From Kineothrix alysoides (GTDB lineage Bacteria > Bacillota > Clostridia > Lachnospirales > Lachnospiraceae), in contig NZ_JPNB01000001.1 of NCBI RefSeq assembly GCF_000732725.1, forward strand, positions 2,170,001 through 2,234,000: a stretch of 64,000 nt of DNA. Reading direction: 5' to 3'. This document shows, one piece after another, positions 28,524-42,520 of this stretch. The stretch's first letter is position 1. Each line of letters opens with the position of its first letter. The notes below the pieces were generated by a model. It was not told the origin of the DNA, did no database searches, and saw only the letters and a list, made by a program, of their open reading frames with translations. Position numbers and translations under genes: made by a program.

Positions 28524-31145
28524 CTATCTTTGTTTAATAGCTGCCTGTGCCGCTGCCAGCCTTGCAATGGGAACTCTGAAAGGAGAACAGGACACATAAT
28601 CGAGACCCGCATTGTGGCAGAATTCAACGGAGGAAGGATCACCGCCATGCTCGCCGCAGATTCCCAGCTTCAGTCCGGGCCGTGTCTTTCTTCCCCTCTG
28701 GGCTGCCATCTCTATCAACTGCCCCACGCCGTTGTGGTCCAGCTTGGCAAAAGGATCGGATTCATAAATTTTACTCTTATAGTACGCCGATAAGAACTTA
28801 CCCGCGTCATCTCTCGAAAAACCGAAAGTCATCTGTGTCAGATCGTTGGTTCCGAAGGAGAAAAACTCTGCTTCCTCGGCAATTTCGTCCGCCAGTAACG
28901 CCGCGCGCGGTATTTCTATCATCGTTCCTATCTGATAGCAGATATCGGAGCCCTTTTCACGTTTTACGGCTTCCGCGGTCTCCACCACCACATCTTTCAC
29001 ATATTTCAATTCCTTTTTGTCCCCTACAAGAGGAATCATGATTTCAGGTACAATGTCAAAGCCCTTTTCCGCCTTCACCTCGATGGCCGCCTCCATTATC
29101 GCTCTCGTCTGCATTCTGGCAATTTCCGGATAGGTCACGGACAGACGACAGCCTCTGTGGCCCATCATCGGGTTGAATTCATGAAGTGCATCGCAGGCTG
29201 CCTTTACCTTTTCTACAGGAAGGCCCATCTCTTCCGCCATCTGCTCGATATCCTTTTCTTCCGTAGGCACGAACTCATGAAGAGGTGGATCTAAGAAGCG
29301 AATCGTTACCGGTCTTCCTTCCATCACCTCGTACAATCCTTTGAAATCGCCCTTTTGGTAGGGGATAAGCTCTGCCAGGGCTGCTTCTCTTGCCTCCACC
29401 GTTTCGGACAATATCATCTTTCTGATCTTAGGGATTCTGTCAGGCTCGAAAAACATGTGCTCCGTACGGCAAAGACCGATTCCCTCAGCCCCCAGTTTAA
29501 TCGCATTGAGCGCATCCGCCGGAGTATCAGCATTTGTGCGCACCTTCAAAGTACGCAACTCGTCCGCCCACGCCATGATACGCCTGAAATTGCCGGTGAC
29601 TCCTGCTTCCACCGTCTTAATATCTCCGTTATAAATCTTACCGGTTGAGCCGTCGAGGGAAAGGTAATCTCCTTCCGTAAACTTGCAGCCTCCCAGTTCA
29701 AAGATTTTTGCGTTTTCATCGATTACGATTTCCCCACAGCCCGATACACAACAGGTACCCATTCCTCTGGCCACAACTGCAGCATGTGAGGTCATGCCGC
29801 CTCTTACGGTAAGGATTCCTTCCGCCGCGTGCATTCCTTCGATGTCCTCCGGAGAGGTCTCCTGACGCACCAGAATGACTCTTTCTCCTCTTTCATGAGC
29901 CATTACTGCATCTTCTGCGTGAAAATATACTTTTCCTGCCGCCGCACCCGGAGATGCGGGGAGTGCTTGCCCGATTACCTGCCCGGCCTTTAATGCTTCT
30001 TCATCAAAGTTCGGATGGAGCAGTTGATCCAGCGATTTTGCCTCGATTCTCTCTACTGCCATGCGGGGGCTGATCATTCCTTCATCTACCAGGTCGCAGG
30101 CTATTTGCAGCGCAGCTCCCGCAGTACGCTTGCCGCTTCTCGTCTGTAAGAAGAACAGCTTACCGTTTTCGATGGTGAATTCCATATCCTGCATATCCCG
30201 GTAATGGACCTCCAAGCGGTTTGCCGTCTCTAAAAATTGCTCATAGCACTCCGGCAGTTCTTCTTTTAGTTTTGTAATGGGCTGGGGCGTGCGGATTCCC
30301 GCTACTACATCTTCGCCCTGAGCATTAATCAGGTATTCTCCAAAGATTCCTTTCGCTCCCGTAGACGGATTTCTTGTAAATGCCACACCCGTCCCTGATG
30401 TTTCTCCCATGTTGCCGAATACCATGGCCTGTACATTGACCGCAGTTCCCCAGTCTCCCGGAATATCGTTCATCCTGCGGTAAATGATCGCACGGTCGTT
30501 ATCCCAGGAACGGAATACTGCCTTTACCGCCTCCATCAACTGTCTCTTCGGTTCCTGCGGGAAGCCCTCTCCTTTTTGTTCTTTATATATTTGCTTGAAA
30601 CGCTCCGTTGTCTCCTTAAGGTCCTGAGCCGTCAGCTCCGCATCTGTATGCACTCCTCTTGTTTCCTTCATTTCCGCCAGGACTTTTTCAAAGCTGGATT
30701 TAGGAATCTCCATAACCACGTCGGAGAACATTTGAATGAACCGGCGGTAAGAATCGTAAGCGAATCTGGGATTACCCGTCTTTTTCGCAAAGCCTTCCAC
30801 CGCTTCATCGTTCAGTCCCAGATTCAAAATCGTATCCATCATGCCCGGCATAGAAGCACGTGCTCCCGAGCGGACGGATACGAGAAGTGGATTCTTCGTA
30901 TCTCCGAACTTTTTCTCTTGTTTACGCTCCAGTTCTTCCAGCGCAGTAAAAATCTGGGCCTCGATTTCTGGCGCAATCTGCTTTTGCTTTTTGTAATAAT
31001 CAGTGCACGCCTCTGTCGTTACCGTAAATCCCTGCGGAATCGGTAGCCCGAGCTTCGTCATCTCCGCCAGATTCGCTCCTTTTCCTCCCAGGAGATTCTT
31101 CATGTCCGCGCTGCCTTCTTCAAATAAGTACACCCATTTTGCCAT
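28524..31145 (-). CDS. ppdK: Pyruvate, phosphate dikinase
   Basis: An 873-residue cytoplasmic enzyme interconverting pyruvate, ATP and phosphate with PEP, AMP and pyrophosphate; in clostridia it often works in PPi-linked glycolysis. The N-terminal ATP-grasp opens KWVYLFEEGSADMKNLLGGKGANLAEM. The phospho-transfer His is in GGMTSHAAVVARGMGTCCVSG near residue 455. The PEP/pyruvate barrel shows GLCRTEHMFFE, GHRGCRL and the end motif FSFGTNDLTQMTFGFSRDD. Length matches the C. symbiosum enzyme. Single gene with its own terminator. Confidence 0.98.
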   Translation of the reverse strand: MAKWVYLFEEGSADMKNLLGGKGANLAEMTKLGLPIPQGFTVTTEACTDYYKKQKQIAPEIEAQIFTALEELERKQEKKFGDTKNPLLVSVRSGARASMPGMMDTILNLGLNDEAVEGFAKKTGNPRFAYDSYRRFIQMFSDVVMEIPKSSFEKVLAEMKETRGVHTDAELTAQDLKETTERFKQIYKEQKGEGFPQEPKRQLMEAVKAVFRSWDNDRAIIYRRMNDIPGDWGTAVNVQAMVFGNMGETSGTGVAFTRNPSTGAKGIFGEYLINAQGEDVVAGIRTPQPITKLKEELPECYEQFLETANRLEVHYRDMQDMEFTIENGKLFFLQTRSGKRTAGAALQIACDLVDEGMISPRMAVERIEAKSLDQLLHPNFDEEALKAGQVIGQALPASPGAAAGKVYFHAEDAVMAHERGERVILVRQETSPEDIEGMHAAEGILTVRGGMTSHAAVVARGMGTCCVSGCGEIVIDENAKIFELGGCKFTEGDYLSLDGSTGKIYNGDIKTVEAGVTGNFRRIMAWADELRTLKVRTNADTPADALNAIKLGAEGIGLCRTEHMFFEPDRIPKIRKMILSETVEAREAALAELIPYQKGDFKGLYEVMEGRPVTIRFLDPPLHEFVPTEEKDIEQMAEEMGLPVEKVKAACDALHEFNPMMGHRGCRLSVTYPEIARMQTRAIMEAAIEVKAEKGFDIVPEIMIPLVGDKKELKYVKDVVVETAEAVKREKGSDICYQIGTMIEIPRAALLADEIAEEAEFFSFGTNDLTQMTFGFSRDDAGKFLSAYYKSKIYESDPFAKLDHNGVGQLIEMAAQRGRKTRPGLKLGICGEHGGDPSSVEFCHNAGLDYVSCSPFRVPIARLAAAQAAIKQR

Positions 31146-31202
31146 ACTCTTTCCTTTCTCATCCTTTTGCCATTTTTCATTTTCGTCTCACACAGACGCA
31201 AT

Positions 31203-31232
31203 ATACCATGAGCGTTAGACGTCCATGGTATA
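31203..31232. promoter_or_regulatory. Inverted repeat upstream of ppdK
   Basis: ATACCATG (31203-31210) and CATGGTAT (31225-31232) form an 8-bp perfect inverted repeat separated by 14 bp, 58-87 bp before the ppdK start. It could be an operator or a leader hairpin; nothing else in the window shares it. Confidence 0.4.
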
Positions 31233-31396
31233 TTATAACGCCAAAAGGCGCCTTTCATTCTGTGTGCAAACTTGTCTGATAATTGATAAGTTATTATATC
31301 ATATATTTCCAAAAATGCACAGTTTTTTCAATTAACTTCCATTTTCCTCTAAATAATTAAGAAATTTGAGCGAAATGTGAAAAATTTAACAACAAT

Positions 31397-32137
31397 TCAT
31401 TCTTCCACGCTTTTTATTTTCCCGGAGAGAAATCTATAAAAGAAAGAAGCCGCAGCTTTCTTTACCGGATCAATGGATGCTTCAAAATAATAGTGTTTAT
31501 TCAACCATTGCTTTTCCACCCAGTATTCCTTGTCTCTTGTCAAGACCTTTTCGGCCAATATCTTCTTTATTTCGAAGGTTATCAATTCTTTCATGCCAGG
31601 TTTGTACCGGTGCATATCCATATTGAGGTATTCTACAAATCTTATATATTCCTTCTTTTCAAGCCTTTTCGCCCGGCTGCCGGCACTCCTGCCGATTTTC
31701 CCGGCGGGAATCGCCCCCCATTGCAAAGCGGCATCCTCCAGATAGTTCAGCGTGTGCCTAAGGCCTGAGCCGGCGGTGGAAGCGACGAACAAAACAGGAA
31801 TTCCGGTAAGCTCCGGCCTATGGACCCATCTGCACGTTCTGTCCAGAAAAGTCTTAAGCATTCCGCTGACATTATTCATATAAACCGGTGAACTCAATAT
31901 AATGCCGTCATACTCAGGTATCCTTCGCATGACGGCATCCACATCGTCCTTCAAATGACAGGTGCCGCTTCGCAGGCACGCCTCACAGCCTACGCACCGC
32001 CCGATATCCAACTCACTTAAACATAGGATTTCCACATCGATGTCATAGGCCGCAAGCTCCTCCTTTAAGTTCTCGAGGAGATGATAGGTGTTTTTCTTCC
32101 GGCTGCTGGCATGTATTGCAATTACTTTCTTTTTCAT
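31397..32137 (-). CDS. Flavodoxin/NADPH-dependent FMN reductase family protein
   Basis: A protein of about 246 residues of the flavodoxin-fold FMN reductase group. The FMN phosphate loop is HASSRKKNTYHLLENL, the cysteine motif CVGCEACLRSGTCHLKDD (near residue 50) is typical of anaerobe members that may bind a metal or FeS cluster, and ILSSPVYMNNVSGMLKTFLDRT contacts FMN. The C-terminal 90 residues are a charged extension ending in helical segments. Last gene of the HypB/flavoprotein/HypA run, so it may pass electrons in the same pathway. The start MKKKVIAI has GGAG nine bases upstream; MERQY at 32152 is possible. Confidence 0.82.
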   Translation of the reverse strand: MKKKVIAIHASSRKKNTYHLLENLKEELAAYDIDVEILCLSELDIGRCVGCEACLRSGTCHLKDDVDAVMRRIPEYDGIILSSPVYMNNVSGMLKTFLDRTCRWVHRPELTGIPVLFVASTAGSGLRHTLNYLEDAALQWGAIPAGKIGRSAGSRAKRLEKKEYIRFVEYLNMDMHRYKPGMKELITFEIKKILAEKVLTRDKEYWVEKQWLNKHYYFEASIDPVKKAAASFFYRFLSGKIKSVEE

Positions 32138-32160
32138 ATACTGCCGCTCCATATCTGCCT

Positions 32161-32502
32161 TTAATAGCAAACAATTTCTTTAATATAAAACTCTCTTCCG
32201 CTTAACAGCTCAAACTGCGTCGATTGGCAATTGGGACAGGCCGTATGGTTTTCCAGTATATTAAAAACCGTCTTACATCCTACGCACTGACCGTTGCCGG
32301 GAATGATTTCTATATCCAGCTTTGTCTTCTCCAGCATGGTTCCATCCACAGCGGCCGGATAAACATCATATATATACTTGGGAATCATGGAGGAAAGTTC
32401 TCCCACCTGCAATACGATGGTGTCTACTTCCTCCACATCGTTTTCCCTTGCGAACTCTTCCACCACTCTTGCCACTTCCATCACCACGCCTAGCTCATGC
32501 AA
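32161..32502 (-). CDS. hypA: HypA-type nickel metallochaperone
   Basis: A 113-residue protein with the invariant MHEL start (His2 is a nickel ligand) and a zinc-ribbon CVGCKTVF...TACPNCQS. HypA hands nickel, with HypB, to [NiFe]-hydrogenase or, in some organisms, urease. Length is normal. It lies between the large flavoprotein and the FMN-reductase-like gene; no hydrogenase or urease subunit is in the window, so the client enzyme is either elsewhere or unconventional. Confidence 0.95.
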   Translation of the reverse strand: MHELGVVMEVARVVEEFARENDVEEVDTIVLQVGELSSMIPKYIYDVYPAAVDGTMLEKTKLDIEIIPGNGQCVGCKTVFNILENHTACPNCQSTQFELLSGREFYIKEIVCY

Positions 32503-32518
32503 TTTTGCTCAGCTCCTT

Positions 32519-35284
32519 TTATTTGCTTTTGGAAAAAGCATTTTGTACTTTTTTAACCGCAATCTTGCCTTTTCTCTTAATAATAGTCTTCACCACTACC
32601 GGCTTCATATCCGTAAAGGCAACGCCTTCCCCGTCATATACGCGTTCCAGCTTTATCGCATCAAACTTGCACTTTGTCGTACACTGGCCACAGCCTACGC
32701 ACATGTAAGAATCCACCACCGTTACACCGCAGCCAAGACAGCGCTCCGTCTCCCTTTTCATCTGTTCTTCCGTAAAAGTTCCCCTTAAATCACGGAAGCT
32801 TTCCTCCGCCTTTTTATCGGATTCAATATTCTCAGGGCACTGACGGGATGTATTGTCATAGGATTCAATAATTGCAGCCTCTTTATCCAGCTCCTTGAAG
32901 ATACGGCGGTCGCGTCCGTATACGAGACTCTGGCCAGGCTGTACAAAACGATGGATAGAAATAGCTGCCTGCTTGCCCGCCGCAATCGCATCGATGGCAA
33001 AACGAGGGCCTGTATACACATCTCCGCCTGTGAAAATATCCTCCTGCGCCGTCTGGTAGGTAAAGGAGTCTGCTTCCAGCGTTCCGTTAGGTCTTGTTAC
33101 CACCGCAGAGCCATTTAACAATTCTCCGAGGAGAATGGACTGTCCTACAGAAAGAAGTATGTAATCTGCCTCCACCGTCATCGTGTCGTTTTCATCATAC
33201 TGAGGACTGAACCTTCCCTCGCTGTCAAATACGCGGACACATTTCTTGAACTCGATTCCCGTAACTTTCCCTTCTTTTGTCAAAATACGTTTCGGGCCCC
33301 ACCCATTTTGTATCTCAATATCTTCCTCCTGCGCTTCCATGATTTCGTCTTTAGAAGCCGGCATCTGCTCTCTGCTTTCCAGACAGCACTGAACCACTGA
33401 ATCTGCTCCGGCGCGGACTGCTGTTCTTGCTACGTCTATGGCAACGTTTCCTCCGCCTACTACTACAGTCTTTCCACTTATTCTCGCCTCGTTATCCTGA
33501 TTTACCATGCGAAGGAATTCGATACCGGACATAACGCCCTGCGCATCCTCTCCCTCAATGCCTACCTTTCTTCCTCCCTGAGCTCCGATTGCCAGATAGA
33601 ACGCATTATAGCCTTGCTTTCTCAGTTCCTCTAAAGTAACATCCTTTCCTACCTCGACGCCCGTTTTGAACTCAACGCCCATTCCCTTAATAATGTCGAT
33701 TTCCGCTTCCACCACGTCCTTTTCCAAACGGAAGCTGGGAATACCCATGGTCAACATACCGCCAAGCTTCTTCTCCTTTTCGAATACCGTAATGGTATAA
33801 CCATCCAACGCGAGGTAATATGCGCAGGAAAGGCCTGCAGGTCCCGCACCCACAACAGCAATCTTCTTATCGCTGTAATCATGTCTCTTCTTGGGAATTA
33901 TGCGGTTTTCTTTGTCCAACTCCTGCTCGGCAATGAATTTTTTAATTTCATCGATGGCGATGGGAGCGTCGATATCTCCTCTCGTGCAGGCATCCTCACA
34001 TCGTCTGTTGCAAATACGCCCGCAGACTGCCGGAAGAGGATTCTCATGACGGATCAGTTCCAGTGCATCCTTGTATTTTCCTTGTGATGCCAGTTTAATA
34101 TATCCTTGTACTCCGATGTGCGCGGGGCAGTTAGTCTTGCACGGAGCGGTTCCGGTATCTACCACATTCTCCCTGTTGGTGCGGTATTCCGGATTCCACT
34201 TTTCCTCTCCCCATTCCATATCTCTGGGCGTTTCCTTCGTCGTAATATCGTCGGTCACCGGTTTCGAGGAGCACAGCTTCTGGCCCAACTTCAAAGCATT
34301 TACCGGACAGTTCTCCACACATTGTCCACATGCAACGCACTTTTCGGGATCTACCTTCGCCACATAATTGGAGCGCACCATGTCATTATTCTTAAACATG
34401 GATGCCGTCCTGAGCGAAAGGCAGCCGCAGCCGCAGCAATTACAAATGGCATGCGTTTTTCCTGAACCGTCGATATTGGGAATCTGATGCATCAGTCCGT
34501 TTTCTTCCGCACGTCTGATAATTTCAAAGGCTTCTTCCCTCGTAATCTGACGGCCCCTTCCGGTCTTGATATAATACTCAGCCGCATGGCCCATCTGGAT
34601 ACACATATCTTCTTTCAGATGTCCACAGCCTTCGCCCATGATTTCGCGGTCGGTACGGCAGGAGCAATCGGTAACGGTAAAAATATTGTTCTCATTCAAA
34701 TACTTGGATACTTCTTCATAGGAAGCCCTGCGGGTATTTCCGTCGATCGCTGTCTCTATAGGGATAACACGCATAAGTCCTACACCCGGAGGGAAGGAAC
34801 CGGCGCTCATGGGCCCTCTTACACGTCCGTAGGCTTCCATGGCATATCCGATAATGGGGTATTTTTCCACATTTTCCCTGCTGTTTACGATCATTTCCAT
34901 CGTTCCGGGAATCCATGTCTCCGCCCAGAATATGTCTTCTCCATCCTTGGTGTTGACGAAGCATACGCCATACTGTGCCAGCTTCATCAGCCGTTCGTGG
35001 CAATAATCTTCCGGCTTGTTCAATAGCTTCGCGATTTCCCTGGTGGTACGCTTTTCGCAAACACCAAGCCCTAAACCTACCTCCGCCATTTCGTCGTCTA
35101 CTCCGGCCTCCAGAATAACATATTCAGGATCATCCCATTTATAAGCACTCTTAGAACCCGGCTTTTTACGGCCGATGTGATTGGCGAGAGCCAATACCTT
35201 CTCATTATATTGGCATTTATACCACTCGGGAAAAATCATTTTTGTAATATCTTTCATCTCATTTAACCTTTCGTTACTGTTCAC
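32519..35284 (-). CDS. Multi-domain FeS flavoprotein, GltD-like NAD(P)H oxidoreductase
   Basis: A 921-residue fusion. Residues 1-300 form an N-terminal domain I cannot name, rich in cysteine: CSCRTDREIMGEGC (207-220) and CNCCGCGC (281-288). A ferredoxin motif CVACGQCVENCPVNALKLGQKLC lies at 316-338. A GltD-type FeS module with CKTNCPAH (382-389) and CGRICNRRCEDAC (421-433) precedes the FAD fold (VVGAGPAGLSCAYYL, 477-491) and the NAD(P) fold (VVVGGGNVAIDVA, 607-619). C-terminal cysteines 849-872 (CLGCG, CVGCGQCTTKC) bind at least one more cluster. It should shuttle electrons between NAD(P)H and ferredoxin-like partners. It sits between hypB and hypA. Confidence 0.88.
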   Translation of the reverse strand: MNSNERLNEMKDITKMIFPEWYKCQYNEKVLALANHIGRKKPGSKSAYKWDDPEYVILEAGVDDEMAEVGLGLGVCEKRTTREIAKLLNKPEDYCHERLMKLAQYGVCFVNTKDGEDIFWAETWIPGTMEMIVNSRENVEKYPIIGYAMEAYGRVRGPMSAGSFPPGVGLMRVIPIETAIDGNTRRASYEEVSKYLNENNIFTVTDCSCRTDREIMGEGCGHLKEDMCIQMGHAAEYYIKTGRGRQITREEAFEIIRRAEENGLMHQIPNIDGSGKTHAICNCCGCGCLSLRTASMFKNNDMVRSNYVAKVDPEKCVACGQCVENCPVNALKLGQKLCSSKPVTDDITTKETPRDMEWGEEKWNPEYRTNRENVVDTGTAPCKTNCPAHIGVQGYIKLASQGKYKDALELIRHENPLPAVCGRICNRRCEDACTRGDIDAPIAIDEIKKFIAEQELDKENRIIPKKRHDYSDKKIAVVGAGPAGLSCAYYLALDGYTITVFEKEKKLGGMLTMGIPSFRLEKDVVEAEIDIIKGMGVEFKTGVEVGKDVTLEELRKQGYNAFYLAIGAQGGRKVGIEGEDAQGVMSGIEFLRMVNQDNEARISGKTVVVGGGNVAIDVARTAVRAGADSVVQCCLESREQMPASKDEIMEAQEEDIEIQNGWGPKRILTKEGKVTGIEFKKCVRVFDSEGRFSPQYDENDTMTVEADYILLSVGQSILLGELLNGSAVVTRPNGTLEADSFTYQTAQEDIFTGGDVYTGPRFAIDAIAAGKQAAISIHRFVQPGQSLVYGRDRRIFKELDKEAAIIESYDNTSRQCPENIESDKKAEESFRDLRGTFTEEQMKRETERCLGCGVTVVDSYMCVGCGQCTTKCKFDAIKLERVYDGEGVAFTDMKPVVVKTIIKRKGKIAVKKVQNAFSKSK

Positions 35285-35374
35285 TCCGTTCTCAGCAACT
35301 CATGATTTCTGCATTTAAATTCGCTCTGCGAAGCAGAAATCATCTCTTGAATCACGTTCTTATGTAAACAGTAA
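35273..35374. repeat. Hairpin repeat element, copy B
   Basis: About 102 bp in the hypB-flavoprotein spacer, matching copy C (36087-36192). Outer arms TTACTGTT / AACAGTAA enclose the 27-bp core and a strong inner stem ATGATTTCTGC (35302-35312) / GCAGAAATCAT (35333-35343), itself capped by TTCGC-TCT-GCGAA. It lies inside a presumed operon, so transcripts would carry it as a long hairpin. Confidence 0.8.
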
Positions 35375-35383
35375 TAACCTTTC

Positions 35384-36052
35384 TTACGCCTGCCATTTTT
35401 TAGTTTCATCACAAAGCCAGTCAGCAAAATCCGCTATTCCCTCTCCCGTTTTCGCGCAAACCGGAATGACCCTGATATCCGGATTCAGTTTCCTGGCCCG
35501 CTCTATGCAGACCTGCAAGTCAAAATCAAAGTATGGCATTACATCTATTTTATTGATCAAAAGTACATCGCAAATGCTGAACATCAAAGGATACTTAAGC
35601 GGTTTGTCATCGCCCTCGGGTACGCTTAAAATCATGGCATTCTTTACCGATCCGGTATCGAATTCCGCAGGACATACGAGATTGCCTACGTTTTCTAAAA
35701 TCGCCAGATCCACGCCTTCTGTTCCCAAGCCTTCCAAGCCCTGTTTCGTCATATCCGCATCCAGATGGCACATGCCGCCCGTATGGAGCTGAATGACCTT
35801 CGCCCCCGTCTTTGCAATCGCAGCCGCATCCACATCCGAATCGATATCAGCTTCCATCACACCGATACGCAGCTTATCCTTCAGCAATTCGATAGTGCGT
35901 GTCAACGTGGTCGTCTTCCCCGCACCGGGGGAAGACATCAGGTTGAGTAAAAATATTTTTTCTTCTTTTAATTTCTGCCTCAGTAAGTCTGCTTGTTTAT
36001 TATTATCTTCAAATACACTTTGCTTAATTTCCAGTACTCTATATTCTTTCAT
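35384..36052 (-). CDS. hypB: HypB-type nickel-insertion GTPase
   Basis: A 222-residue SIMIBI GTPase. P-loop SSPGAGKTT lies near residues 41-49, the metal site in the G-domain is GGMCHLDADM (Cys-His pair), followed by ENVGNLVCPAEFD and INKIDVMPYFDFD (NKxD). The N-terminus lacks the His-rich storage stretch and the CxxCGC motif of some HypBs. The start MKEYRVLE is chosen over an in-frame TTG in the repeat-rich leader. It is flanked on both sides by ~100 bp hairpin repeats. With HypA it would deliver nickel to an unidentified client. Confidence 0.94.
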   Translation of the reverse strand: MKEYRVLEIKQSVFEDNNKQADLLRQKLKEEKIFLLNLMSSPGAGKTTTLTRTIELLKDKLRIGVMEADIDSDVDAAAIAKTGAKVIQLHTGGMCHLDADMTKQGLEGLGTEGVDLAILENVGNLVCPAEFDTGSVKNAMILSVPEGDDKPLKYPLMFSICDVLLINKIDVMPYFDFDLQVCIERARKLNPDIRVIPVCAKTGEGIADFADWLCDETKKWQA

Positions 36053-36086
36053 CTTATGCTGACCTGCTCCTTCCAAAGTACGGCAT

Positions 36087-36192
36087 GTTACTGTTCACTC
36101 CGTTCTCAGTAACGCATGATTTCTGCATTTCAATTCGCTCCGCGAAGCAGAAATCATCTCTTGCATCACGTTCTTACTCAGCTTAACAGTAA
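36087..36192. repeat. Hairpin repeat element, copy C
   Basis: About 106 bp between the membrane-protein gene and hypB. The 27-bp core (36087-36113) is followed by ATGATTTCTGC / GCAGAAATCAT with the TTCGC-TCC-GCGAA cap, and outer arms TTACTGTT / AACAGTAA. A further AACAGTAA-like word lies 30 bp beyond. Differences from copy B are compensatory or in loops (for example TCT to TCC at the tip). Confidence 0.8.
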
Positions 36193-36235
36193 ATGTTAAA
36201 CTGCTGTGTAAACAGTAAGTACTGCAATTTCTTAT

Positions 36236-37216
36236 TTATTCTGCTAAAGCTGCGACTTCTTTATATTTTGCAATATCCGTATACAGTTCCGCCTTATAAG
36301 GATTGCGTTTCGTCTTCGTTACCTTGTAAATCATGTAGGCCAATACCGCTATATTAGCTGCCAATGCAAGGAAACTTACGATAAAGTAGATAGTCGTATT
36401 ATAGGTCGAGGAAACGGAGAACATTCCCGTATCCTGGAATGCAGGGAACGTCTGTGCAAACATACACCAGAGCGCGAGTGTCTGTGCGCGGTGCTGAAGC
36501 CATGCTCCTTTTCCCAAGGTAAATGCACAAAGAGTCGGAGCTAACAGCAGTGCGAAGCCGCAGTACCATGAATGTCCCGGGAGACAGTTGTATGTATACG
36601 CAAAGTTCCAAAGGTCATAAGCGATAATCCAGAACCAGAGCATATCAGGCCAAATCATATCTCTGCTCTTATCCTTAGCTGTCGCCTTTCTTATCTTGAT
36701 GCCGAACCATCCGGTAATCGTGATAATATTCAAAATACCCGCAATCGCGTTCATGTAGTTCCAAGGTCCGCCGATTACGTACTGTGCATCGTCCACCAGC
36801 ATTCCGCCGCCCACATAATTCATTCCTACTTCCAAATCACGGGCTACGGCCTCACCGATATTGATTGCAAGAATCAAAGGAGGGAAGCACAGTGCGATTT
36901 TGTTCTCGGAAAGTCTCCACGCTTTTCCTGTCTTCTTGTTCGTTCCATGAAGATGGCGGATACACCAGAAGCCGATACAGCCGGCCGTGGAAGAATATAC
37001 CTTTGCCAGATGGAACCAGTCCGTATAGGTGGTATCTGATAAAACCGTAAACCACAGAACGGATAAAACAGCGGGAAGTACGACAAAGCATACGATTCCC
37101 ATTACCTTGTATCTTCTGGATACCTCATTCAGTGCAAATAACGCTGCAAAAACCACTAACCACATGAGCCACGACGTTAAGCCGGTTGCTCCCTCCGCAT
37201 AATTAAATGTAAACAT
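36236..37216 (-). CDS. Polytopic membrane protein, resembles DUF5692
   Basis: A 326-residue protein with about eight hydrophobic helices and no cleavable signal (opening MFTFNYAEGATGLTSWLMWLVVFAAL). Between helices are conserved-looking polar residues: HLHGTNKKTGKAW, INIGEAVARDLEVG, NAIAGILNIITITGW, YDLWNFAYTYNCLPGHSWYCG. The sequence recalls the uncharacterised DUF5692 family; no transporter motif is evident. It is the first gene of the operon continuing to hypB and the flavoprotein, behind a GntR operator. A channel for nickel or a membrane redox partner are both conceivable. The start has AGGTGAG upstream. Confidence 0.7.
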   Translation of the reverse strand: MFTFNYAEGATGLTSWLMWLVVFAALFALNEVSRRYKVMGIVCFVVLPAVLSVLWFTVLSDTTYTDWFHLAKVYSSTAGCIGFWCIRHLHGTNKKTGKAWRLSENKIALCFPPLILAINIGEAVARDLEVGMNYVGGGMLVDDAQYVIGGPWNYMNAIAGILNIITITGWFGIKIRKATAKDKSRDMIWPDMLWFWIIAYDLWNFAYTYNCLPGHSWYCGFALLLAPTLCAFTLGKGAWLQHRAQTLALWCMFAQTFPAFQDTGMFSVSSTYNTTIYFIVSFLALAANIAVLAYMIYKVTKTKRNPYKAELYTDIAKYKEVAALAE

Positions 37217-37238
37217 AACTCTCACCTTTCCTTTGTTA

Positions 37239-37255
37239 TGCTGGTCATACCAGCA
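37239..37255. promoter_or_regulatory. GntR-type operator before the membrane protein/hypB operon
   Basis: TGCTGGT-CAT-ACCAGCA, a perfect 7-3-7 palindrome 22 bp before the start. The TGGT/ACCA arms are of the FadR/GntR type and recur before the divergent GntR gene. Confidence 0.75.
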
Positions 37256-37404
37256 CATATTTTTCGTTTTCTTCTTGATATAAATTTATCATTATTATAG
37301 AAAATAGTCAATTCTTTATAAACCTTTCTACATTATACTAAAATTTTGTTGTTGATTTTAGTCATTTCGTACAATATAATGATTGAATAAGCAGTTTTGG
37401 TATG

Positions 37405-37415
37405 TGGTTAAACCA
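37405..37415. promoter_or_regulatory. GntR-type operator before its own gene
   Basis: TGGTTAAACCA, an 11-bp palindrome 23 bp before the GntR start; an extra TGGT half-site lies at 37398-37401. The arms match the operator at 37239, predicting joint control of both divergent units. Confidence 0.65.
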
Positions 37416-37437
37416 GTTATTATATGGAGGTCATTTT

Positions 37438-38145
37438 ATGGAATTTCAAAAAATAAGCTCCCCTTCTCTCAGGGAGCTGTTCGTAGAACAATTAGAGCAT
37501 ATGATTTTATCCGGCAAGCTGGGAATCGGAGAAAAGCTTCCTCCGGAAAGACAGCTTTCGGAGGCTATGCAGGTCAGCCGGGCCGTAGTCAACAGCGGTA
37601 TTGCCGAGTTGGAAAAAAAGGGCTTTCTCATAGTAAAACCCAGAGTCGGCACCTTTGTCGCAGACTACCGCAGAACAGGAACGCTCGATACCCTGCTTTC
37701 TATTATGAAATATAATGGAGGAAAGCTGAGAAATGATGAAATAAGATCGATTCTCGAAGTCAGAATTGCTTTAGATACTCTTGCGGCACAGCAATGTATT
37801 AAACGCATTACCGACGAAGAGGTTCAATTGCTGCTGGAAAAAACAGAACGCATCCGGGATGCCTCCTCGATTGCCGGGGCCTCTCAGGCTGCGTTCGAAT
37901 TTCAGCATGAATTTGCCGTATTGTCCCAAAATGTCTTAATACCTTTAATTTTTCAATCCTTTAAGGTTCCGGTATTCACCCTTTGGGAACGTTTCTGCAC
38001 GCTTTATGGAATCCCAGCCCTATATCAAAATACTTATAAGCTCTGGTCCTTCATTCATGACCGGGATATAGACGGAGCGGTTCACTGGATTCAGCACTCC
38101 GTAGGAGAAACCATAAACGGCAGTCGGAAAATTTATTACGAATGA
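37438..38145 (+). CDS. GntR/FadR family regulator
   Basis: A 235-residue regulator. The winged helix lies at residues 8-75 (LREQLEHMI-type start, LPPERQLSEAMQVSRAVVNSGIAELEKKGFL), and the C-terminal FCD-like helical domain (about 90-230) contains the EVRIALDTLAAQ helix. FadR-group FCD domains bind metal and small organic acids. The start MEFQKIS follows TGGAGG. It is divergent from the membrane protein/hypB/flavoprotein operon with matching palindromes on both sides, so it is the likely regulator; its ligand may reveal the substrate. Confidence 0.9.
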   Translation: MEFQKISSPSLRELFVEQLEHMILSGKLGIGEKLPPERQLSEAMQVSRAVVNSGIAELEKKGFLIVKPRVGTFVADYRRTGTLDTLLSIMKYNGGKLRNDEIRSILEVRIALDTLAAQQCIKRITDEEVQLLLEKTERIRDASSIAGASQAAFEFQHEFAVLSQNVLIPLIFQSFKVPVFTLWERFCTLYGIPALYQNTYKLWSFIHDRDIDGAVHWIQHSVGETINGSRKIYYE

Positions 38146-40663: not shown

Positions 40664-42520
40664 TTGGATTATAATATTACTAGTAATAAGATTACATCAA
40701 AAGTGGGGATTCCCTATGACGATATTCGCTGGCAAGATGTTACCGGGCAGCCTTTCGGTACCGCATCTCAATTCAACGCTATTGTTTTTGGCAATGCTAA
40801 TAACATCGTGGACGCTAACGGCGCAATGGCAGTTGGCGGAAACTTTGTCAGTCCCCGGGGCCTTAGTCTTGCCTTTGGAGGCGGTTCACAACCGGTAGAA
40901 ATAGGCTATTCCCCTGATATGGTAAGATTTCTTGTGGGAAATAATGTTTCAATGAACGGCCCTTTAGGAGTGGTTGGCCATGTTGTGGCCGGCGGTAACT
41001 TCCGGACCGACAAAGGCAGTACCTATTTCATCGGCAAAAGCGGAGAACCCGGACAGGTACAAAAGTTAGAATCTCTATATCATTCCGATTCAGGCAGCCC
41101 TTATTGGAAGCCCAGCGATAAAGGAGATCACTACATTATTCCAAGCTACGATGTGCCAAGATTCATTCCTGCAAGCCGGATTGGCGCAGATACTGCCGGC
41201 TTCTTCCAGGATGCAAGAAACAGCATTGAGAATTATAAGAACTGTATTGAAAATTTACCCGCAAACGGAGAAGTAATCGATAATTTCCACGAATGGATTC
41301 TTCGCGGTAATAATCCGCAGCAGAATGTATTCACGCTTGATGTACCAAACGGTATCCTAAAGAAAGGTATTCGTGCCGAAGTGCCGGAAGGCAGCTTAGT
41401 CATTGTAAAACTAAGAACAGGAGATAATGCACATCTGCAGTATGGCCTTATAGGAGAACGCAGCAAAGCGGACCATACCCTTTATGTGTTTGAAGACGCT
41501 AAAAATATATTTATGGAAGTTCCTGCTGCAATCTGGGGAAGTATTCTGGCTCCACAGGCTATGTTTCATGCTCACTCAACAGGAGGAAATGTTACTGGAA
41601 ATGTCGCTCTGAATTCGTTTGCAGTAAATCCGACCAGCGGGTTCGAATTCCATCTTCCTCCTTTTACAGGAGGCGTAATGTGCGAAACAGGAGGAGCAGT
41701 TCTTCCTGCAACGCCTGTTACTCCGGCTGTACCTGTTACTCCGACTGTACCTGTTACCCCGGTAGCCCCTGTTACCCCGACAACACCACCTACTATGGTG
41801 AGTCCCGAGACTGTCGTTTGTCCGGTTTGTCCGGAACCGGCTCCCTGCCCGATTTACCCTACTTGTCCGGAACCGCTGCCTTGCCCGATTTGCCCGGAGC
41901 AGATGCCTTGTCCGGTCTGCCCGTCTTGTCCGGAGCAGATGCCTTGCCCGGTCTGCCCGTCTTGTCCGGAGCAGATGCCTTGCCCGATTTGTCCGGAGCC
42001 GGTTACTTGTCCGGTTTGCCCTACCTGTCCGGAGCCGGTTACTTGTCCGGTTTGCCCTACCTGTCCGCAACCGATGCCTTGCCCGGTTTGTCCTACTTGT
42101 CCGGAACCGATGCCTTGCCCGGTCTGCCCGGTCTGCCCGGTTTGCCCGGAGCCGGTTATTTGTCCGGAATGTCCGCCTTGTCCTGCTTGCCCGGTTTGTC
42201 CGGAGCAGATGTCCTGTCCGGAATGTCCTCCTTGCCCGGAATGTATGATTACCCCAGGGCTCATTGCCGGCTACATCAAGGGATGTTCCTGCTGCAGCGA
42301 GCATGAATGGGAGCTGCGGCTTTACCAAATATTCTGCAACACTCAGGTTTTATTATCATGCAAATGCGTATCTTGCTTTGGGTATTTTGAATTCGAAGTT
42401 CCGTACAGCGGAAGTTATTTATTACAAGTATGTCCGTCAAAGAGCTTCAGAAAAAGCTTCAGATGTAAGCCGAATATATCACTGAATAATATTGGAGTAT
42501 CTAACTTTATGATGGAATAA
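40664..42520 (+). CDS. Choice-of-anchor A family protein with Cys-Pro repeat region
   Basis: A 618-residue protein in four parts. Residues about 20-345 match the choice-of-anchor A domain (FNAIVFGNANNIVDANGAMAVGGNFV ... AAIWGSILAPQAMFHAHSTGGNVTGNVALNSF), normally on secreted proteins. A Pro/Thr/Val linker (about 350-380) precedes a 143-residue array (386-528) of CPVCPxCPEPMP-like units holding 36 cysteines. A 90-residue C-terminal domain with nine cysteines resembles a carboxypeptidase-regulatory-like beta sandwich. There is no signal peptide, LPxTG or membrane anchor. The start is TTG ten bases after AGGAG; an in-frame stop lies just upstream. A spore-surface or other disulfide-rich coat role is possible. 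Confidence 0.8.
   Translation: MDYNITSNKITSKVGIPYDDIRWQDVTGQPFGTASQFNAIVFGNANNIVDANGAMAVGGNFVSPRGLSLAFGGGSQPVEIGYSPDMVRFLVGNNVSMNGPLGVVGHVVAGGNFRTDKGSTYFIGKSGEPGQVQKLESLYHSDSGSPYWKPSDKGDHYIIPSYDVPRFIPASRIGADTAGFFQDARNSIENYKNCIENLPANGEVIDNFHEWILRGNNPQQNVFTLDVPNGILKKGIRAEVPEGSLVIVKLRTGDNAHLQYGLIGERSKADHTLYVFEDAKNIFMEVPAAIWGSILAPQAMFHAHSTGGNVTGNVALNSFAVNPTSGFEFHLPPFTGGVMCETGGAVLPATPVTPAVPVTPTVPVTPVAPVTPTTPPTMVSPETVVCPVCPEPAPCPIYPTCPEPLPCPICPEQMPCPVCPSCPEQMPCPVCPSCPEQMPCPICPEPVTCPVCPTCPEPVTCPVCPTCPQPMPCPVCPTCPEPMPCPVCPVCPVCPEPVICPECPPCPACPVCPEQMSCPECPPCPECMITPGLIAGYIKGCSCCSEHEWELRLYQIFCNTQVLLSCKCVSCFGYFEFEVPYSGSYLLQVCPSKSFRKSFRCKPNISLNNIGVSNFMME
41819..42247 (+). repeat. Tandem Cys-Pro coding repeat
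   Basis: About 430 bp of imperfect tandem repeats with unit lengths of 21 to 39 bp, built from TGT/TGC-CCG codons. Long frames also stay open in other phases because of the repeat, but only the plus frame continuous with the anchor domain makes sense. Confidence 0.85.

Follow-up and report, generated by a model that had tools for sequence, protein, structure and literature searches.

In the 64,000-nt stretch of the Kineothrix alysoides genome analysed here (the window, to whose first letter all positions refer), the genes of a DUF5692 membrane protein, HypB, a large iron-sulfur (FeS) flavoprotein and HypA form a genuine operon behind a divergently oriented gene for a GntR-type regulator. Judged by its domain build and by the motif spacing as printed, the 912-aa flavoprotein fits the IsrA family (clade 9), named after IsrA, the putative and isoprene-induced isoprene reductase of Acetobacterium wieringae (Kronen et al. 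2023, PMC10134865). We consider it probable that the operon encodes an anaerobic reductase of this family together with a dedicated HypA/HypB nickel pair, and that nickel would sit at a site of six cysteines (Cys6) in the N-terminal domain, where an unsaturated substrate would be reduced. The genes are arranged as follows:

36236..37216, minus strand: DUF5692 membrane protein, 326 aa (Pfam E 5e-122; likely start ATG 37216)
35384..36052, minus strand: HypB, 222 aa, nickel-binding GTPase family (TIGR00073, 242 bits, cut-off 121; likely start ATG 36052)
32519..35257, minus strand: IsrA-type FeS flavoprotein, 912 aa (likely start ATG 35257)
34352..35257, minus strand: N-terminal domain of the flavoprotein with C198, C200, C219, H257, C272, C274 and C279, putative nickel client site
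32161..32502, minus strand: HypA, 113 aa (Pfam E 9e-30; likely start TTG 32502, giving MHE)
31397..32137, minus strand: FMN-reductase-like flavoprotein (Pfam FMN_red; likely start ATG 32137)
37438..38145, plus strand: divergent GntR/FCD regulator, 235 aa (Pfam GntR and FCD)

An earlier reading made from the sequence only had placed five open reading frames (ORFs) on the minus strand, all of which are present at about the positions given, and Pfam assigns them to FMN_red, HypA, a GltD/NfnB-like flavoprotein, HypB/cobW and DUF5692. The order GntR-DUF5692-HypB-flavoprotein-HypA is identical in three further loci (L062, L063, L066). The same reading had proposed a new nickel-linked redox system; in this it was anticipated by the 2023 paper, which describes the family with HypA, HypB and DUF5692 as its neighbours. 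Of the 988 IsrA homologues counted there, 73% have a neighbouring HypA, 56% a HypB and 40% a DUF5692 gene; the IsrA host is described as lacking [NiFe]-hydrogenase and hypCDEF, nickel at the Cys6 cluster is proposed, and cluster V of IsrA is also compared with cluster A. Other Acetobacterium homologues are given as ~47-49% identical, and the strains named as tested did not reduce isoprene (available text of PMC10134865). A putative diene reductase cluster is mentioned in a genome announcement of 2025 (available text of PMC12509576). The published nickel idea came from an acetogen that also has carbon monoxide dehydrogenase (CODH)/acetyl-CoA synthase (ACS) and lactate racemases (available text of PMC10134865).

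The source genome and 18 to 20 others combine IsrA and HypA with the absence, save for doubtful partial matches, of the other nickel enzymes searched, so that nickel dependence could be read directly in such genomes; the locus thus offers a clean setting in which to ask whether the IsrA-type enzyme represents a novel type of nickel enzyme. Few classes of nickel enzymes are known, and none is known to hydrogenate unactivated C=C bonds, the activity of which the IsrA family was already suspected. What is added here is a genome-level test of the nickel client, a separate HypA clade, a profile of DUF5692 and, in some relatives, neighbours of the CooC, ACS-domain and double-cubane types.

Genome-level link between IsrA and HypA

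The survey covered 200 genomes, each of its own genus, of a family inferred to be Lachnospiraceae. IsrA was found in 39 genomes, HypA in 51, HypD in 30, the [NiFe] large subunit in 20 and DUF5692 in 29. These counts rest on 71 IsrA-domain matches minus 20 weak ones (E 3.5e-10 or worse, in short frames; 16 genomes had weak matches only) and leave out G131 (HypA), G092 (DUF5692), two genomes with weak HypD matches and G080 (weak ACS-domain match). HypA was present in 38 of the 39 IsrA genomes (Fisher p 1.4e-28), the sole exception being a 74% complete genome with isrA at a contig end (G001), and it lay within 6 kb of 40 of the 51 IsrA loci. [NiFe]-hydrogenase occurred in 7/39 IsrA genomes, a weak tendency to co-occur (p 0.08), and IsrA was independent of HypD (7/39, p 0.62). 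Thirteen genomes have HypA without IsrA and 11 of them carry HypD, so that for 49 of the 51 HypA genomes the presence of HypA can be explained by IsrA or HypD. Both HypD and [NiFe]-hydrogenase are missing from 31 of the 38 genomes with IsrA and HypA, and 21 of those 31 show no CODH over the cut-off and at most short and partial LarA matches, a number that falls to 19 when two genomes with partial matches to urease models are excluded. Partial LarA matches just over the cut-off were seen among the 21 in the source genome and in G176, the latter match being uncharacterised.

The K. alysoides genome itself is complete (4.68 Mb, 3 contigs, 100% completeness in the table) and contains a single HypA, HypB, IsrA (as a match to the N-terminal domain) and DUF5692. 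From the window it had been claimed that no other hyp gene and no nickel enzyme accompanies the operon, and this holds genome-wide for HypD (the only one of hypC-F searched), the [NiFe] large subunit, urease, CODH and LarA. Two matches had to be reassigned: the one to the CODH model, under the cut-off, is a hydroxylamine reductase, and the partial one to the LarA model (24.5 bits, cut-off 23.3) is a DUF362 protein. A hyp set with a [NiFe]-hydrogenase elsewhere in the genome, and homologues mostly without hypA/hypB, had been named beforehand as observations that would refute the nickel-linked redox system, and neither was found.

Both nickel-insertion proteins have intact metal residues, as had been read from the sequence. 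HypA retains MHE (from the TTG start) and two CxxC motifs, and HypB its P-loop and the CH...C residues; hypB exceeds the NCBIfam cut-off (242 against 121 bits) and hypA stays under it (78 against 88 bits). A tree built from 59 HypA sequences places all 40 IsrA-linked HypAs in one clade (support 96/92) together with two unlinked ones, from a fragmented genome with IsrA on another contig (G199) and from a 60% complete genome in which IsrA was not found (G023), and it places the 17 HypAs from HypD-bearing genomes outside this clade. The IsrA-link label changes 3 times on this tree and 16.2 times when shuffled. Seven genomes combine IsrA with HypD; both types of HypA are present in six of them, and the seventh (G164) has a fourth HypA as an unplaced fragment. 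The alignment has 112 columns and the inner forks are weak; three partial matches over the cut-off (G164:C12 and two of G048) were left out of the tree.

Similar neighbourhoods were found outside the survey in a set of named records, the best 80 of at least 554 relatives with one genome per species scanned, a set biased to near relatives and titled as several phyla. In the 64 evaluable loci (16 were too close to a contig end; the contigs of L100 and L103 are also among the family loci), tblastn within 6 kb detected HypA in 60, HypB in 41, DUF5692 in 19 and a GntR homologue in 21. A metagenome-assembled genome titled Acetobacterium woodii (L147) contains a homologue with 55% identity that is adjoined by DUF5692, HypB and HypA. 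Across many loci, HypA, HypB, DUF5692 and GntR are the only recurring neighbours, and they name no substrate. As a separate observation, Clostridium sp. Marseille-P2415 (L114) seemingly has three successive IsrA-HypA units, two of them with shorter IsrA ORFs.

The flavoprotein and its six-cysteine site

The existence of the flavoprotein stood, and its length of 921 residues did not: the likely length is 912 aa, since the GTG start at 35284 sits inside an 88-nt repeat found throughout the genome. Residues 1-302 comprise a winged-helix-like part and the Cys6 domain, followed by a ferredoxin-type cluster at 307-317, a GltD/NfnB-like FAD/NAD(P)H domain with Fer4_20 at ~360-780 (Pfam, NCBIfam; ferredoxin-type motifs lie on both sides) and C-terminal cluster motifs at 840-863. 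In the numbering of the 921-aa ORF, Fer4_20 and Pyr_redox_2 span 378-770. The protein stays under the curated cut-off of all 25 NCBIfam models shown, and residues 1-302 reach the cut-off of no Pfam family, in line with the earlier remark that the first ~300 residues match no recognised family.

Of 119 homologues, 118-119 retain seven residues of this domain (C198, C200, C219, H257, C272, C274 and C279), the single gap being a truncated ORF; the six cysteines form two CxC pairs and two single Cys. The stretch CNCCGCGC, highlighted in the sequence-only reading, was rejected as a family signature, because its two additional cysteines, C275 and C277, are present in just 84/119 homologues, and the six Cys and one His are what is conserved. 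C211 is Cys in 106/119. In one locus (L079:5656-7744), HypB stands beside a 339-aa protein that resembles the IsrA N-terminal domain alone and beside an HypA-like protein of 80 residues in which MHE is kept and the zinc finger is missing. This arrangement of a short Cys6 protein with HypB and an HypA-like partner is a hint that the nickel client may be the N-terminal domain and not the flavin part.

The organization resembles that described for the isr operon of ISORED-2/strain Y in the available text of PMC10134865. IsrA and the 912-aa protein are both ~900 aa long and share Fer4_20, the FAD/NAD(P)H domains and an N-terminal part without a Pfam family; their CxC motifs (180/182 and 254/256 in IsrA, 198/200 and 272/274 here) are both 74 residues apart, and the ferredoxin motif (289-300 in IsrA, from 307 here) keeps the constant offset of 18. 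Both operons contain HypA and HypB in genomes without a [NiFe]-hydrogenase. The isr operon has two hypA genes and a VUZ27135-type ferredoxin, whereas this operon has one hypA and no ferredoxin gene; DUF5692 and GntR are present here, unlike in the isr system as printed, and neither CODH nor LarA was recognised in the genome.

Other known systems are similar in parts. NfnB-, GltD- and AegA-like flavoproteins resemble the 912-aa protein at ~360-780, to which it adds a C-terminal cluster and, at the N-terminus, 300 residues that include the Cys6 site. HypA and HypB belong to the same families as those of [NiFe]-hydrogenases and share their metal residues; here, the HypA clade is a separate one, and HypD and the large subunit are missing. 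The A-cluster of ACS is held by six Cys including CxC. This Ni-Ni-[4Fe-4S] cluster and its CooC/AcsF maturation are similar in that feature, and ACS-domain and CooC neighbours occur in some IsrA loci.

From the gene content, family build, conservation, co-occurrence and absence of the other searched nickel clients, we infer the following path. HypB, a GTPase, would load nickel and hand it to HypA, which would insert it into a cluster held by the six invariant Cys of the N-terminal domain. Electrons from NAD(P)H would enter at the GltD/NfnB-like FAD domain and pass via the ferredoxin-type clusters to the Cys6 site, where an unsaturated, probably hydrophobic substrate would be hydrogenated; bifurcation with ferredoxin is possible. 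DUF5692 would be the membrane partner, perhaps in substrate entry or electron exchange, and GntR would act through two TGGTnnnACCA sites, from which the substrate or a related acid would probably release it. The proposal in the sequence-only reading that the N-terminal domain is the nickel client is thus well supported by the co-occurrence, the absence of the other clients searched and the HypA clade of its own; its nickel content is the part that stays conjectural.

Other partners of IsrA and alternative explanations

In some relatives, a CooC-type ATPase, an ACS-domain homologue and double-cubane-type proteins stand beside IsrA, which is new here. A five-gene module adjoins IsrA in L045, L055, L058, L067, L082, L088 and L174 (Faecalicatena orotica) and comprises a CooC-like ATPase, two HGD-D proteins of the double-cubane type, a BadF/BcrAD-type activase and a ~235-aa homologue of the ACS middle domain; in L051, the activase and the ACS-domain gene are present before the contig ends. 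Two of the CooC-like ATPases were scanned, and CooC1 was the best solved match of both (3KJE, E 8e-18 and 1e-14), with CYC aligning on CYC. All seven ACS-domain homologues match Pfam CdhC at E < 1 (best 7.6e-9, that of L055 being under the cut-off), and a profile of them gave ACS subunits as the first 14 of 15 matches among solved structures (best E 1.3e-4). Of the 200 genomes, 17 contain the ACS-domain protein and 14 of these also have IsrA (p 5.8e-9); the protein is not in the source genome, where the CooC-type ATPase was not searched for. By tblastn over the stretch examined, HypA is found in 5/6 of the CooC-bearing family loci and HypB in 1/6, and L174 has HypA and no HypB. Another group of neighbours, homologues of a FecCD permease and an ABC ATPase, flanks the IsrA operon in L062, L113, L124, L132, L137, L156 and L178 (with an FmdE homologue in 4 of these 7) and may possibly encode a metal-chelate importer. 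The main text of PMC10134865, as available, does not name a double-cubane-type subunit, activase, CooC1, CdhC or FecCD as neighbours; 'double cubane clusters' appear there as a comparison. The neighbours of the CooC, ACS-domain and double-cubane types suggest the kind of cluster to look for.

DUF5692 gains a genome-level link as well. IsrA is present in 28 of the 29 DUF5692 genomes, yet DUF5692 lies within 6 kb of just 16 of the 51 IsrA loci, so the link exceeds adjacency. A structure model shows ~nine long transmembrane helices (pLDDT 82), and loop charges suggest an N-out/C-in orientation, which would place two of the invariant polar residues, H69 and H215, near the predicted outer face. Compared with solved structures, DUF5692 gave no match at E <= 0.001. 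Its role may be substrate entry, electron exchange or metal entry.

Taken together, these data allow a wider proposal that we regard as possible and hold only tentatively: IsrA-type proteins may be a widespread class of C=C reductases that contain nickel, iron and sulfur in a mixed-metal cluster similar to that of ACS, within a new fold. Their maturation would depend on their own HypA/HypB or, in a second kind of locus, on HypA and a CooC-type ATPase accompanied by an ATP-driven double-cubane reductase and an ACS-domain homologue, and DUF5692 would be their membrane partner.

Several observations weigh against the assignment of IsrA as a nickel client, and HypA/HypB could handle a metal other than nickel or act on a client outside those searched. 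HypA is missing within 6 kb of 11 of the 51 IsrA loci, mostly extra copies, fragments or contig ends, and both HypA and HypB are missing from the 6 kb around IsrA in 4 of the 64 named loci, whose Cys sites are intact. IsrA is also absent from one genome with DUF5692 (G156) and from three genomes with the ACS-domain family. The present operon lacks the ferredoxin gene and the second hypA of the isr operon, so this is not the isr operon itself and isoprene is not implied as the substrate. The N-terminal domain, modelled with a mean pLDDT of 84.5, gave nothing at E <= 0.001 against solved structures, the best match being winged-helix-like, so that the site receives no support from its fold, and ACS was not among the matches of its profile to solved structures. 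Finally, the Cys6 spacing is common to two short FeS proteins that are not necessarily nickel proteins.

That the pair serves a different client, be it an unrecognised nickel enzyme, a glyoxalase-type enzyme or general nickel/zinc handling, and is merely co-inherited with isrA would be compatible with the loci lacking HypA nearby and with a search that covered some nickel enzymes and not all; HypA/HypB elsewhere serve more than one client, Helicobacter urease being an example of such a further client. We consider this explanation unlikely, as the link persists in 39 genomes of different genera and in named records titled as several phyla, the HypA clade tracks IsrA even where the second HypA type is present (6/7 IsrA and HypD genomes), and none of five further client or maturation families searched is present in the source genome besides the two misassigned matches. 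The spacing shared with short FeS proteins and the zinc site of HypA would also agree with an IsrA that holds FeS clusters only, with the Hyp pair supplying a non-nickel metal or acting as an assembly factor; the retained MHE and CH...C metal residues speak against this, and the CxC-bearing CooC-type ATPase that adjoins some of the IsrA loci also points to nickel, which makes such a role quite unlikely. It is very improbable that DUF5692 is the client, as a membrane nickel or redox protein with IsrA as its nickel-free electron partner: its near confinement to IsrA genomes and its invariant polar residues, including the two histidines, would suit such a role, but 10 of the 11 IsrA genomes without DUF5692 have HypA, far fewer IsrA loci have DUF5692 than HypA within 6 kb, and a clustered Cys motif was not seen in it. 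An orphan hypAB pair left after the loss of a [NiFe]-hydrogenase, to which the missing large subunit might point, is hardly credible and was dismissed, because the unit is conserved in content and order in other genera, its HypA clade is separate, the metal residues are intact and neither decay nor scattered loss was seen.

Regulator, repeats and remaining genes

The operon is likely regulated by the GntR/FCD protein, as judged from the divergent gene and two TGGTnnnACCA sites. The regulator ORF opens at 37402; the ATG at 37438, which is preceded by GGAGG, yields a protein of 235 aa, as is usual among its homologues. TGGTnnnACCA, which we take to be the motif of GntR/FCD sites, lies upstream of 20 of 25 related GntR genes. 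The palindrome noticed in the sequence-only reading was located as TGCTGGTATGACCAGCA, and a second site was found. The elements between the genes are:

37239-37255: TGCTGGTATGACCAGCA, palindrome, likely operator, 5' of the DUF5692 gene
37405-37415: TGGTTTAACCA, second TGGTnnnACCA site, before the likely gntR start
36087-36174, minus strand: 88-nt palindromic repeat, copy 1, in the DUF5692-hypB gap
35273-35360, minus strand: 88-nt palindromic repeat, copy 2, in the hypB-isrA gap, containing the GTG start of the 921-aa ORF

The 88-nt repeat has at least 40 copies in the genome at 92-100% identity (40 of 112 candidates scored) and is not specific to the operon. Its hairpins have z-scores of -3.1 and -2.6, and it belongs to no Rfam family; no Rfam family matched across 31100-37600.

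The FMN-reductase-like protein, counted as an operon member in the sequence-only reading, is not part of the conserved unit: tblastn detected it neither in the 60 family loci nor, within 6 kb, in the 64 evaluable named loci, and its absence beside IsrA led us to reject it as a component of the system. The gene is possibly co-transcribed with the operon at this locus. One match of 44 bits in L177 is distant from IsrA and under the threshold used. The 64-kb window contains no tRNA genes, and a comparison with PHROGs gave nothing useful. A 618-aa ORF at 40664-42520 on the plus strand contains CPxCP repeats in a long series.

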